Assembly (NCBI RefSeq): GCF_014334115.1
Contig: NZ_CP060494.1
Coordinates: 186,001 to 250,000, forward strand
Origin: Sphingosinithalassobacter sp. CS137
Lineage (GTDB): Bacteria > Pseudomonadota > Alphaproteobacteria > Sphingomonadales > Sphingomonadaceae
Direction of reading: 5' to 3'
Length of the DNA: 64,000 bases
The notes under the pieces are model-generated. The model made no database searches. It saw nothing but the letters and a program-made list of their open reading frames with translations, and had not been told where the DNA came from. Of this stretch, positions 9,453-15,339 are shown piece by piece (position 1 is the stretch's first letter; each line of letters starts with the position of its first letter). The position numbers and the translations under genes were made by a program.

Positions 9453-9770
9453 ATGAACATCTTTCAGGAAACGAAGCTGTGGCTCGTCGAGCATCTGCTG
9501 CTCGCGAAAGATGCACTGCACATCTACGTCGGGCTGATTCTCTTCTTCGGCGTTGCGCTGGTCTTTCGCTGGCGGATCGGCGGCTGGAAGCCGTGGGCGG
9601 TCGTGCTCGTCGCGGCGCTGGCGGGCGAGGCGTGGGACATCGTCGATACGGCGCGCGCGGGCATCCCGCAGCTGCCGTGGGAGAATCTGAAGGACATCTG
9701 GAACACGCTGTTCTGGCCGATCGCGATTACCGCGCTGGCGCGGTGGACGCGGGTGTTCGAGCGCGAAGGC

Positions 9771-9788
<18 letters not shown>
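9453..9788 (+). CDS. Small integral membrane protein, unknown
   Basis: A 111-residue protein with hydrophobic segments around residues 23-40 ([17 protein letters not shown]), 45-60 ([17 protein letters not shown]) and 83-95 ([15 protein letters not shown]), consistent with two or three membrane passes. It begins two bases after the yhhQ stop and is probably co-transcribed with it. Its 3' end overlaps purQ, on the other strand, by 18 bases. No family recognised; a link to queuosine metabolism would be guesswork. Confidence 0.7.
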
Positions 9789-10432
<644 letters not shown>

Positions 10433-10436
<4 letters not shown>

Positions 10437-10663
10437 AGCTTTTCGACCCGATAATTCTCGATCACCGTATTGGCGAGGAGCTTGCGGCACATGGCGTCGA
10501 TATCCGCGTCGCTGGTGCTGTCGGCGACGTCCATCTCGAACAGCTTGCCGGCGCGCACGTCGTCGACCCCGGCGAAGCCGAGCGAATCGAGCGCGTGCTG
10601 GATGGCCTTGCCCTGCGGGTCGAGCACGCCGTTCTTGAGCGTCACGATGATGCGGAGTTTCAT
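10433..10663 (-). CDS. purS: Phosphoribosylformylglycinamidine synthase subunit PurS
   Basis: Small bridging subunit holding PurQ on the small form of PurL. The 76-residue sequence [18 protein letters not shown] with [10 protein letters not shown] and the [10 protein letters not shown] strand is characteristic. The start is placed at ATG 10663, in line with family length; twelve more codons upstream are open but Arg/Gly-rich. It overlaps purQ by four bases. Upstream on the same strand lies a secretion-type gene pair and only then purC, so the purine genes here are split. Confidence 0.94.
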
Positions 10664-10704
10664 GCCCCGCCCTATGGCCCCGCCGCGCGCCGCCCGCAAG
10701 GGGA

Positions 10705-12108
10705 TCAGAAGTAGCGCGCCACTCCGATGCGGAAGCGCAGCCGATCGTTGGCGAAATAGGGGAGCGAGGAATCGGTGCGGGTGTAGCTGGCGCTGAGCTG
10801 GGGCGAGAAGCCGAGCAGCCGGATCTTGCGATTGCCCAATGTGGCGCGCGCGGTGTAGCGCCAGTCCTCGCGCGGATCGGGCGAGAAGAAGGCCATCGGC
10901 GCATCATATTCGGCGCGGCTGACCGTGCCCGACAGGCCGAAGCTGATGCCATGCGCCAGTTCGCCGCCGACGCCGGCGATCACGCCGAGTTCGGTGCTCG
11001 AATAGGTCTCCGCACCCAGCGAATCGCGCCGTCCGAACACGCCTCCGGACACGACGATCGCGCGCGCGACCGCACGCTCATAGGTGGCATAGGCGCCGAT
11101 CTGCCAGCCGCTATAGGCATCGTCGAAGCGGGCCTCGGTGTGCCGCGCGTCGAGCTGGAGGCCGATCTGTTCGCGGTTGCTGAGCCGGGCCTGGAAGCCG
11201 GTCTTCACGCCCGCCTGACGGCTGACGAGATCGCCGCCGTACCAGCGCTGGGCGCCGACCGCCTGCACCGAAACGCTGGCGGCGGAGGAGAGACGGAATT
11301 CGGGGCCGGCGGCGAGCTGGACGAGATAATCGTCGTAGGATTCGCCCGAAAAATTGGTGCCGCTGCTGTCGAGATCGACGAGCATCAGCGTGCCCTCGGC
11401 GACCGGCAGGCGCAGCCCGGCGGATATGACCGCGCTCTGGCCGGTGCCCGAACGGGCGCGCGCCTCGTCGTCGAGCGTGAGCGGGATCGGCGTGTCGCCG
11501 AAGAGGATGTTGATCCGCTCTGCATCGGTGGCGTTGTTGATGTTGCTGTCGGGCACGAGCGCGAAATCGACGTCGAAGCGCCAGCCGCGCTGCTGGCGGA
11601 TCACGTCGCGTACCGCGCGGATCGTGCGGGCGACGTCGGGCGGCAGATCCTGGTCCTGCGCGGCGATGCGGAACTGGCGGTCGGCGCTCGCGGTCTTGCC
11701 CATCGCCAGCATGGCGCGGGCGAGCTCGAGCCGCACGCGGGTCTGGCTCGGGTCGTCGGCCAGGATCGCGCGATACTGTTCGGCGGCGGCGGCGTGATCG
11801 CCTGCGGCGGATGCGGCGATTCCAGTGAGGAAGCGCGTTTCGAGCCGCAGCGCCGGGACATGGGCGAGCGCCTGGAGCATCGGCCGCGCCTCTTCGGTGC
11901 GGCCCGCCAGGACGAGCCGCTGTGCCTCGGCGAGAAGTTGAGCGGGCGTGAGCCGCGCGACGCAGGTGGACGCGGCGCACTGGTCGATCAGCGCCTGCGA
12001 CTGCGCCTGCCCATGGGCCTGCGACTGCGACTGCGCCTTGGCGGGCAGGGCGGCGGCGAGCGGCGCCACCAGCAGCAGCGCCGCCCCGGCGAGCCGGGGG
12101 AGACGCAT
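10705..12108 (-). CDS. Surface lipoprotein assembly modifier (Slam)-like outer-membrane protein
   Basis: Probable outer-membrane translocator that exports a partner lipoprotein to the cell surface (type XI secretion). The 467-residue protein has a signal peptide (to about residue 25, PAKAQ), a short Gln/Ser-rich stretch, then helical TPR-like repeats (about 50-165: [39 protein letters not shown]). From about residue 175 ([20 protein letters not shown]) the sequence has alternating barrel strands and ends with aromatic Phe (RIGVARYF), as outer-membrane barrels do. This TPR-plus-barrel layout is that of Slam/DUF560 proteins. ATG 12108 overlaps the stop of the upstream lipoprotein gene (TGATG), so the two are coupled. 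Confidence 0.82.
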
Positions 12109-13403
12109 CAGCGCTTGCCCGTGAACGCACCCAATATGTCGACGCGCTGATCGGGGATGCCGCCGACGACGCGGAAGCCGCCGCCGATTTCCTCGCCATT
12201 GGGGCCGAAGAAGGCGCCGTCGATGCTCGATCCGGCGACGTTCACGCTGATCTCGCGCGCGCCGTTCGCAAAGGTGAAGCCGGCCGGCGCGGTGAAGACG
12301 AAATTTCCGCCATCGGCGAACGAGCCGATGAACCCGCCGGTGCCGGCGAGATCGATCCGCGCGGTGCCGCTGCCGGTGAAGCTGCTGCCGGCCGTGACGA
12401 AAGCGGTCTGCGGCCCGGTTTCATGGTCGTAATACGGATCGAGGACGATACCGGCCAGCGAGAGCGTGAGGTTGCCCGTGGCGAAGTTCACGCTGACGTT
12501 CGAGCGACCCGAGAGCCACTGGAAATAGGTGGGGAGAACGGCGCCCATGTCGCCGTCGAAAGTGGGGTTATAGACCATCGTCGCGAGCATGTTGCCGCTG
12601 TAGCTGCCGCTGCCGCTGGTCGGGACGGCGCCATTGCTGGTCTGCACGCCATAGGCGAAGGCGCCGCGCTCGAGATGCCAGCGCGTCTGCTTGATCGTGG
12701 TGCCGCCGACCGTGACTTCCTCGAACCCCAGCGCATTGCGGACATAGCCGGCCAGGCTGACATAGCGGGTATTGGTGCCCGGCTTTTCGTAGAAGAGCGT
12801 CGTCGAGGTGTAGCTCGAGCCGACCTCGCCGTTCGGCGCGGTGTCGTTGTCGCCCGGATCGACGAAGCCGGTGCCGCTCCAGCTATAGGGTGCGCGTGGA
12901 TCGCCGTCGCCGGCCTGGAGATACTGGACGTCGGGGTTCGCGGCCGCGCCGGCGGGAAGTCCGTTCAGATTGGGGACGCCCCACTGCGGCTGCTGCGCTC
13001 CGCCGAAGTTGGTGCGTGCCGCCGGATCCTGGAAGCGGGTGCCGGCCGCGGCGCCGCTCTTGGGATCGTTGATCGTGAGGGTGAAGATCGCCGAGCGCGG
13101 ATCATAGGCGACCGCGATCTCGCTGTTGCGGACGGTGCTCGCCTCGCCCGAATAGATCTGGCCCTGCTGATCGCAGCAGTTTCGCGAATCGGTGGTATAT
13201 TCATAGACCTGGACGCCGCCGATGCCGGTGTAGCTGCGCGCCTCGACGGGGTTCACGAACTGGCTGTAGCTGTCCGTGGGAGCAGGGGTGCCACCGCCCG
13301 AGGGCGGGGCGACGCTGCCGACCGTCTGCGGCGACGTGTCGCCGCCACAGGCCGCGAGCGTGAGCCCGCCGGCGAGGACGACATAGTTCCGGATCGAGCG
13401 CAT
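12108..13403 (-). CDS. TbpB-like lipoprotein, probable Slam substrate
   Basis: A 431-residue exported lipoprotein: signal peptide with lipobox LTLAACGGD (Cys near residue 19), then a Gly/Pro/Thr-rich spacer. The rest is Gly-, Ser- and Thr-rich beta-type sequence. The C-terminal ~100 residues form a recognisable transferrin-binding-protein-B-type barrel end, with repeated GTARIDLAGTGGFIGSFADG strands and the signature GAFFGPNGEEIGGGFRVVG. An NCCDQQG double cysteine lies near residue 76. The stop overlaps the start of the Slam-like gene. Whether it binds transferrin, heme or something else cannot be told; free-living sphingomonads have no obvious transferrin source. Confidence 0.78.
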   Translation of the reverse strand: MRSIRNYVVLAGGLTLAACGGDTSPQTVGSVAPPSGGGTPAPTDSYSQFVNPVEARSYTGIGGVQVYEYTTDSRNCCDQQGQIYSGEASTVRNSEIAVAYDPRSAIFTLTINDPKSGAAAGTRFQDPAARTNFGGAQQPQWGVPNLNGLPAGAAANPDVQYLQAGDGDPRAPYSWSGTGFVDPGDNDTAPNGEVGSSYTSTTLFYEKPGTNTRYVSLAGYVRNALGFEEVTVGGTTIKQTRWHLERGAFAYGVQTSNGAVPTSGSGSYSGNMLATMVYNPTFDGDMGAVLPTYFQWLSGRSNVSVNFATGNLTLSLAGIVLDPYYDHETGPQTAFVTAGSSFTGSGTARIDLAGTGGFIGSFADGGNFVFTAPAGFTFANGAREISVNVAGSSIDGAFFGPNGEEIGGGFRVVGGIPDQRVDILGAFTGKR

Positions 13404-13451
13404 CGCGAAGTTCCTCTGCTGCGTATCGCCGCAGAACTACCGGTGCGATGG

Positions 13452-13467
13452 TTAAGAAGCCTTTTAA
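13452..13467 (-). promoter_or_regulatory. AT-rich imperfect palindrome upstream of the TbpB-like gene
   Basis: Sixteen bases starting TTAAGAAG and ending CCTTTTAA form a dyad with six of eight positions matching, in otherwise very GC-rich sequence and 49 bases before the lipoprotein ATG. It could be an operator or promoter core. It resembles a CtrA-type TTAA-N7-TTAA site, but the spacing is eight, not seven. No regulator assigned. Confidence 0.3.
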
Positions 13468-13522
13468 GCGGGCCGCGCCGCGCTGCCTTTCGGACGATAT
13501 CGGACGCCGGAGCGGGGCCGGC

Positions 13523-14302
13523 TCAGCGGCCCCGGCGCTTGCGGTGCGATTCGAGGTCGAGCACTGCCGAATCCGCGCCCTCCGGCAGCAGCCCGAGCCG
13601 GCGGGCGACTTCCTGATAGGCTTCGACTTCGCCGCCGAGATCGCGGCGGAACCGATCCTTGTCGAGCTTTTCGTTGGTCGCCATGTCCCACAGGCGACAG
13701 CCGTCGGGGCTGATTTCGTCGGCGAGGATCACGCGCGGATAGTCATTGTCCCAGATGCGGCCGAATTCGAGCTTGAAGTCGACCAGACGGATGCCGATGC
13801 CGGCGAACAGGCCCGAGAGGAAATCATTCACCCGGATCGCCATGTCGGCGATGTCGTGCAATTCCTCCTGCGCCGCCCAGCCGAAGGCGAGGATATGCTC
13901 GTCGGTCACCATCGGATCGTTGAGCGCATCGTCCTTGTAATAATATTCGATGATCGTGCGCGGCAGCTGCGACCCTTCCTCGATGCCGAGGCGGGTGGCG
14001 AGGCTGCCGGCGACGACATTGCGCACCACGACTTCGATCGGGATGATCTCGACCTGGCGAATGAGCTGCTCGCGCATGTTGAGACGGCGGATGAAGTGAG
14101 TCGGAATGCCGATCCCGCCCAGCAGCGTGAAGACATGCTCGCTGATGCGATTGTTGAGCACGCCCTTGCCGTTGATCGTGCCCTTCTTCTGCGCGTTGAA
14201 CGCAGTGGCATCGTCCTTGAAATACTGGATCAGCGTGCCCGGTTCGGGACCCTCGTACAGGATCTTGGCCTTGCCTTCGTAAATCTGGCGGCGGCGCGGC
14301 AT
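13523..14302 (-). CDS. purC: Phosphoribosylaminoimidazole-succinocarboxamide synthase
   Basis: Joins aspartate to CAIR with ATP to give SAICAR in purine synthesis. The 259-residue protein has the family start ([16 protein letters not shown]), the nucleotide-loop region [22 protein letters not shown], the [14 protein letters not shown] motif and [12 protein letters not shown] near the C-terminus. Length is normal. It is read toward the TbpB-like/Slam pair and then purS-purQ. Bases 13514-13533 form a 7-bp GC hairpin with the purC stop in its loop, which may mark a partial transcript end before the lipoprotein gene. Confidence 0.95.
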
Positions 14303-14430
14303 GCGACGGGTCCCCTGAAATGCGCTGCCCCGGCGGCGCGGGTCACGCGCTCGTGCCGGGGCGAAGGCTTGCGGCTATAGCCAAAGGACCGGCGGGGCGC
14401 AATCAGCCGCCGTGCAGAAAGCGGGGCGGT

Positions 14431-15339
14431 CTATCGCTCGTCGTCGTCCTCGTCGCGGGCGAACCAGCGCTGGATGAGATTGCGATCGTCGCCGGAGTCG
14501 CGATCCTGCACCGGCACGGCGTTGGGCACCGGATCCTCGCCCTCGGTGCGCGGACGGCTGGTGCTGTGGATCACCAGCCGCAGCAGGAACACGATGACGA
14601 TCATCAGCACCAGCCATGGGCCGATCCCGGCCAGCAGCTGAACCACGCCCGCCACCGATTTCTCGAGCGTCTCGCCGGCGTTGCGGAAGCTGGCGTCGGG
14701 AGTCGAGCCGAGCGGCGTCAGCGCATTGCTCGATTCATAGGTGATGAGCACCGGAGCGGTCGCGTAGGATTCGGTACGGCCGTCCTGAACCTCGGAAATC
14801 GTCGCCAGCGCCGCCCGGATGCGATCGGCGCGGGCGGCGGCCTCCGGCCCCGGGCGCTGCTCGGCCTCTTCGAGCGCCTGTTGCAGCCGATCGGTCAACG
14901 ACGCGGTGCGCCGCGCGGTCAATTCGCCGCCTGCGATTTCGGTATCGACGAGCTGCCCGTCGGCGCTTGCCACCGCTTCGGTGACGGCATCGCCAAAGGC
15001 GCGGGCGATCGCCGGATCGATCTTGACCGTGAGCACCGCGGTGACTCTGCTCGCATCCTTGACGCGATAGCGCACCGCAAGCACGCGACAGCGCTGCTCG
15101 CCCAGCCGGTCGCAGGCGTCGGCATTGCTTTCCAGAACGGGCTTCACGCGATCGCCGGGCAGGCGGAAGGCATAGCGATAATCGAAGGGGCTGCCGGTGG
15201 CCGCAAAGGCGGCCGCAGCCTCGCGCGACGCGAAATCGGGCGCCGCCGTCTCGGTTTCGTCTCGATCTCCGCCGATCGGATCGCATCCGCCGAGCAACAT
15301 CAGCGCAGCAAGTGCCGCAAACCTTGCCTCGATTCGCAT
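14431..15339 (-). CDS. DUF4349-like lipoprotein with C-terminal membrane anchor
   Basis: A 302-residue envelope protein. The signal peptide ends at LMLLGGC (lipobox Cys near 19). The middle contains a beta-rich part (VLAVRYRVKDASRVTAVLTVKI) and a helical, probably coiled-coil part (about 145-190, DRLQQALEEAEQRPGPEAAARADRI shortened in the family). A hydrophobic helix follows (about 240-262, LLAGIGPWLVLMIVIVFLLRL), then an acidic tail ending DEDDDER. This order matches DUF4349 proteins as I know them. Function is unknown. It diverges from parC over a 176-base gap. Confidence 0.65.
   Translation of the reverse strand: MRIEARFAALAALMLLGGCDPIGGDRDETETAAPDFASREAAAAFAATGSPFDYRYAFRLPGDRVKPVLESNADACDRLGEQRCRVLAVRYRVKDASRVTAVLTVKIDPAIARAFGDAVTEAVASADGQLVDTEIAGGELTARRTASLTDRLQQALEEAEQRPGPEAAARADRIRAALATISEVQDGRTESYATAPVLITYESSNALTPLGSTPDASFRNAGETLEKSVAGVVQLLAGIGPWLVLMIVIVFLLRLVIHSTSRPRTEGEDPVPNAVPVQDRDSGDDRNLIQRWFARDEDDDER

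Follow-up and report, generated by a model that had tools for sequence, protein, structure and literature searches.

How does a sphingomonad come to carry a transferrin-binding-like lipoprotein and its apparent exporter in the midst of its purine genes? The question is raised by two adjoining genes in the window, the whole 64,000-nucleotide stretch of Sphingosinithalassobacter sp. CS137 analysed here (contig NZ_CP060494.1, positions 186,001 to 250,000, renumbered from its first letter). The pair very probably constitutes a two-gene type XI secretion system (T11SS), in which one gene would encode a surface lipoprotein (the cargo) and the other the Slam translocator that exports it. This reading draws on the anatomy of the genes, the families of both products, the predicted single-lobe fold of the cargo, the pairing of the two in relatives and their usual genomic place. 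T11SS are a known kind of system; what is novel is this member, at a usual site among purine genes. The features of the pair are as follows.

12108..13403, minus strand: cargo, predicted surface-lipoprotein precursor, a single-lobe handle-barrel protein of 431 amino acids.
13347..13403, minus strand: predicted signal peptide and lipobox (LAAC) of the cargo with acylated Cys19, read from the sequence.
12639..13271, minus strand: putative ligand-binding handle domain of the cargo, about residues 45-255, placed from model strands and lobe alignments, its limits being our own reading.
12111..12626, minus strand: C-terminal TbpB-type beta barrel of the cargo, residues 260-431, the presumed Slam-targeting domain.
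12106..12110, minus strand: TGATG, the junction of cargo stop and Slam start.
10705..12108, minus strand: Slam (SlipAM, DUF560), predicted outer-membrane translocator of 467 amino acids, matching PF04575.
11629..11934, minus strand: N-terminal TPR region of Slam, about residues 59-160 (PF14559, with sub-cut-off PF24575 and PF13432).
10708..11583, minus strand: C-terminal barrel domain of Slam, residues 176-467, with Phe last (PF04575).

A preliminary description, made from the letters of the DNA, had proposed a Slam and TbpB-type lipoprotein pair here and had named profile searches and structure prediction as checks. The cargo is, as it held, a lipoprotein with a lipobox (LTLAAC, residues 14-19), and Cys19 is invariant across 66 aligned rows. 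Its C-terminal part, residues 260-431, matches the Pfam family PF01298 (TbpB_B_D) at 31.4 bits, over a cut-off of 26 (E 3e-7), and includes the barrel signature singled out at the time, GAFFGPNGEEIGGGF, at residues 396-410. The predicted structure (pLDDT 88.6) has a C-terminal eight-stranded barrel of the TbpB type preceded by a handle domain, and aligns to the single handle-barrel lobes of TbpB, HpuA, haemophilin (HphA) and fHbp. Foldseek recovered the same families, but full TbpB superposed poorly (root-mean-square deviation about 22). The claim that the N-terminal three quarters look unlike TbpB therefore stands for the extent of the Pfam match and falls for the fold, the modelled handle being like that of a TbpB lobe. 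TbpB proper was rejected as an identity for the cargo, whose model has one lobe and whose window has no match to the Plug domain of TonB-dependent receptors. At least 563 homologues were found at E<=1e-3, and the NCBI name for relatives is ‘transferrin-binding protein-like solute binding protein’.

The neighboring protein matches PF04575 at 98.6 bits, over a cut-off of 22 (E 6e-28), across 288 of 288 profile positions, so that both profile searches passed. Its front matches PF14559 (32 bits, cut-off 25, E 1.6e-7), which places TPR repeats at the N-terminus; a signal peptide can be read from the sequence, and the chain ends in RYF, with the terminal aromatic typical of outer-membrane proteins. 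The described order of TPR, barrel and final Phe was thus correct. The genome (3.19 Mb, one contig) has no other PF04575 match, and a 98% relative in Sphingosinithalassobacter sp. LHW66-3 is named ‘surface lipoprotein assembly modifier’ by NCBI. Slam homologues number at least 686 at E<=1e-3; this total and that for the cargo are lower bounds, since each search scored about 8000 candidates. The best 60 of 71 profile matches to solved structures include no Slam and all fall on profile positions 4-173, the TPR part; single-sequence searches of solved structures gave weak matches.

The two genes are tightly joined. As previously noted, the cargo stop TGA (12110-12108) and the Slam start ATG (12108-12106) have one base in common, forming TGATG, which suggests translational coupling. 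The junction could be read at 31 loci of the genus with both genes: at 17 the genes overlap or Slam starts within 4 nt of the stop, and at 14 the nearest downstream Slam start lies 15-37 nt away. Scanning positions 9700-14500 for promoters and terminators gave no signal (0 promoter-like sites; 3 terminator-like sites against 2.3 expected).

Could the two simply be chance neighbors, an ordinary TPR porin next to an unrelated lipoprotein? The TPR part of Slam alone does match many TPR proteins. Among 201 genomes of the genus, PF04575 occurs in 64 (at E<=1e-3; 63 pass the Pfam cut-off) and PF01298 in 90. Cargo of the window type is present in 32, every one of which has PF04575, while the 137 Slam-less genomes are without it (Fisher 1.3e-19); a thirty-third match at E<=1e-3, in the Slam-less genome G014, was dropped, as it scored 20.8 bits over residues 4-65. 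In all 32 carriers the cargo lies directly upstream of Slam on the same strand, with 477-577 nt from its end to the SlipAM domain, roughly the length of the Slam front part. In one carrier (G196) this was judged from a contig-end fragment, the assembly splitting the cargo so that only its end piece lies beside Slam; in another (G107, locus L127) tblastn missed the cargo in the flank analysis and other searches showed it. Family-wide, 45 of 249 genomes have a cargo match. It exceeds 120 bits in 28 of them, representing 14 genera, and analysis of the neighbors in these 28 shows an adjoining Slam in 27, in 13 genera. Pfam scores, fold and pairing together make chance adjacency scarcely credible, and the unrelated TPR porin was rejected on the same grounds. 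The Slams of the genus are themselves diverse: of 29 loci scored with a profile of the window Slam (L004-L032, one per genome, a subset of the PF04575 matches), 16 score 625-815 bits and are assigned to the window type, and the other 13, at 26-177 bits, are distant.

If the pair is a T11SS, the lipoprotein would carry a type II signal peptide and, once acylated, be brought to the outer membrane. There Slam, whose TPR domain precedes a beta barrel, would recognize the C-terminal barrel of the cargo and pass the chain across the membrane. The cargo would then remain lipid-anchored at the cell surface with its handle outward, binding a ligand. Export itself, the surface location, the part played by the TPR domain and the binding of a ligand are what we infer. 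The lipoprotein might instead stay in the periplasm or be released in soluble form, with the Slam-like protein serving some other role. Soluble TbpBBD proteins are also secreted by T11SS, according to the part of PMC8406197 consulted here, and handle-barrel lipoproteins do occur in genomes with no detectable Slam. Invariance of Cys19 and the unbroken pairing of cargo with Slam argue the other way, and leave this alternative very improbable.

Several observations nevertheless weigh against a simple two-gene T11SS. The NCBIfam model slam_lipo (NF041636) gives the cargo only 24 bits against a cut-off of 80, so it is not an equivalog of that model, though it lies within the wider fold family; on the Slam side, the Slam-specific PF24575 (TPR_Slam) reaches 30.4 bits (E 5.4e-7), below its cut-off of 35.2, and PF13432 in the same region is also below its own. 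Five of the 32 Slam genomes that lack window-type cargo have no barrel-protein match at all (G031, G050, G081, G091 and G159, the PF04575 matches of G050 and G159 being weak). In G091 a window-type Slam occupies the purC-purS interval (locus L162, G091:C1:2095500-2101500); the 200-base gap there holds no detectable cargo gene, and the genome is without a PF01298 match. Sequence distances of Slam across 22 genomes correlate with those of flanking genes as well (r 0.64 with purQ, 0.53 with purC), so part of the correlation between cargo and Slam reflects shared descent; the cargo distances follow purQ and purC less closely (r 0.35 and 0.34).

A further caution comes from the rest of the genome, which holds two PF01298 matches: the window cargo and a second handle-barrel lipoprotein outside the window (L002:904-1896, G000:C1:2918167-2919156), with a proline-threonine (PT) repeat linker, which adjoins pth and has no Slam beside it. 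Its family, here called the orphan family, was counted in 40 genomes at >=237 bits, the next best match having 56.6 bits; at E<=1e-3 it extends to 148 of 201 genomes, many of the lower rows matching the N-terminal lipobox and PT part only. In G026 the orphan is split over two frame pieces. Eighteen of the 40 genomes have no detectable Slam, and the orphan itself has none next to it, so possession of the barrel is not enough to predict Slam export and should be read as weak evidence for it. One speculative and rather unlikely account would divide sphingomonad handle-barrel lipoproteins into two classes, one locked to Slam at an optional purine site and one linked to pth, with PT repeats, that also occurs in Slam-less genomes and surfaces by another, hitherto undescribed route, making the TbpB-type lobe older than, or more widespread than, type XI secretion.

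What of the site? The pair lies between genes that we take to be purC on one side and purS and purQ on the other (9771-14302).

13523..14302, minus strand: presumed purC (SAICAR synthase), bordering the site upstream.
10433..10663, minus strand: presumed purS, downstream flank.
9771..10436, minus strand: presumed purQ, downstream flank.

The arrangement recurs among the 32 carriers of the genus: in the stretches fetched, purC is upstream in 26 and purS downstream in 26, with both in 23, at least one in 29 and neither in 3. Spacing varies: cargo and purC are more than 1 kb apart in G119, G140 and G072, and the same holds for Slam and purS in G119, G082, G196 and G165; additional genes may thus share the site in these six carriers (L106, L111, L113, L114, L119 and L131). 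Within 1500-base flanks of the 28 family loci, purC is present at 17, in 8 of 14 genera. The empty site was seen in a non-random sample of 25 of the 137 Slam-less genomes (17 with the orphan family, 8 picked from the listing): in 22, purS follows purC at 67-437 nt and purQ comes next, and in the other three (G184, G027 and G133) purS falls outside the fetched stretch. G109 has its Slam elsewhere and an empty purC-purS site. Of the 32 Slam genomes without window-type cargo, 26 had both places listed; in one of these, G091, a Slam lies within 10 kb of purC, and in the other 25 none does. The simplest reading, we infer, is an old insertion, vertically inherited, that has frequently been lost and whose cargo changes fast. 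As the pair is naturally present or absent at one site, its function can be approached by comparing near relatives.

Might the pair be a working part of the purine cluster, co-expressed with the pur genes and capturing a nucleoside, a nucleotide or extracellular DNA? Its recurrent position between purC and purS would fit, as would the family-wide company of purC, and purine metabolism is among the pathways reported near cluster 1 T11SS genes in the part of Grossman et al. (2025; PMC12282271) used here. However, the purine genes stay together without the pair in 22 of the 25 Slam-less genomes sampled, some carriers have it away from both genes or spaced from one of them by more than 1 kb, no purine-binding feature was seen, and a single old insertion followed by vertical descent would yield an identical pattern. 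A purine role is highly doubtful. The site may explain, by position, some of the reported association of T11SS genes with purine metabolism.

A second proposal for the ligand is compatible with the T11SS reading: the cargo would capture iron, haem or another metal for a TonB-dependent receptor encoded elsewhere, like TbpB, HpuA and the haemophilins. In its favor, the single-lobe fold resembles HpuA and HphA, and the genome has 32 Plug-domain matches. None of these is in the window, though, the nearest being about 90 kb away; the alignment of the cargo shows no His with conservation above 80%, even if His243 is the majority residue at its position; and the flanking genes are purine genes. Metal or haem capture is possible but doubtful.

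Taken as a T11SS, how does the pair compare with known systems? In Neisseria, Slam1 and Slam2 with TbpB, LbpB, HpuA and fHbp likewise combine a DUF560 translocator with lipobox cargo bearing a handle-barrel lobe; slam2 and hpuA are adjacent, and HpuA and fHbp are single-lobed, as given in the consulted part of PMC5449769. TbpB and LbpB have two lobes, whereas the window cargo has one; the window is devoid of TonB-dependent receptor genes, and the pair has a usual place among purine genes. Haemophilin (HphA) differs in another way: cargo of DUF560 subcluster 1B is almost all predicted soluble (PMC8406197, consulted in part), while that of the window is a lipoprotein. A literature search, with subscription papers and preprints outside its scope, returned nothing joining surface lipoprotein assembly modifier with Sphingomonas or SlipAM with purine, and nothing on Slam-independent surface lipoproteins; TbpB, Slam and Sphingomonas occurred together in PMC12282271 only. 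That paper, in the sections used here, publishes ten T11SS cargo architectures. One is the ‘Sphingomonas surface protein’, a predicted, phylogenetically restricted architecture with TbpBBD domains, described as having PT repeats and two to three pairs of handle and barrel. The window cargo is single-lobed and lacks a PT repeat; the second lipoprotein of the genome does have such a repeat, but is likewise single-lobed and adjoins no Slam. The preliminary description had inferred that this sphingomonad has a surface-lipoprotein system of its own. A sphingomonad Slam group was already published, subcluster 1C of cluster 1, which the consulted part of PMC8406197 describes as made up largely of Sphingomonadaceae isolated from the environment, none of its members being characterized. 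The taxonomy of the window Slam's relatives fits this subcluster; the consulted part of that paper names neither the purine site nor the window cargo. According to a 2025 abstract, no more than seven T11SS proteins had been verified by experiment, all of them from the animal-associated cluster 1 (PMC12282271). Against these, the window offers a compact system, one Slam with a single neighboring cargo, from a group said to be mostly environmental.
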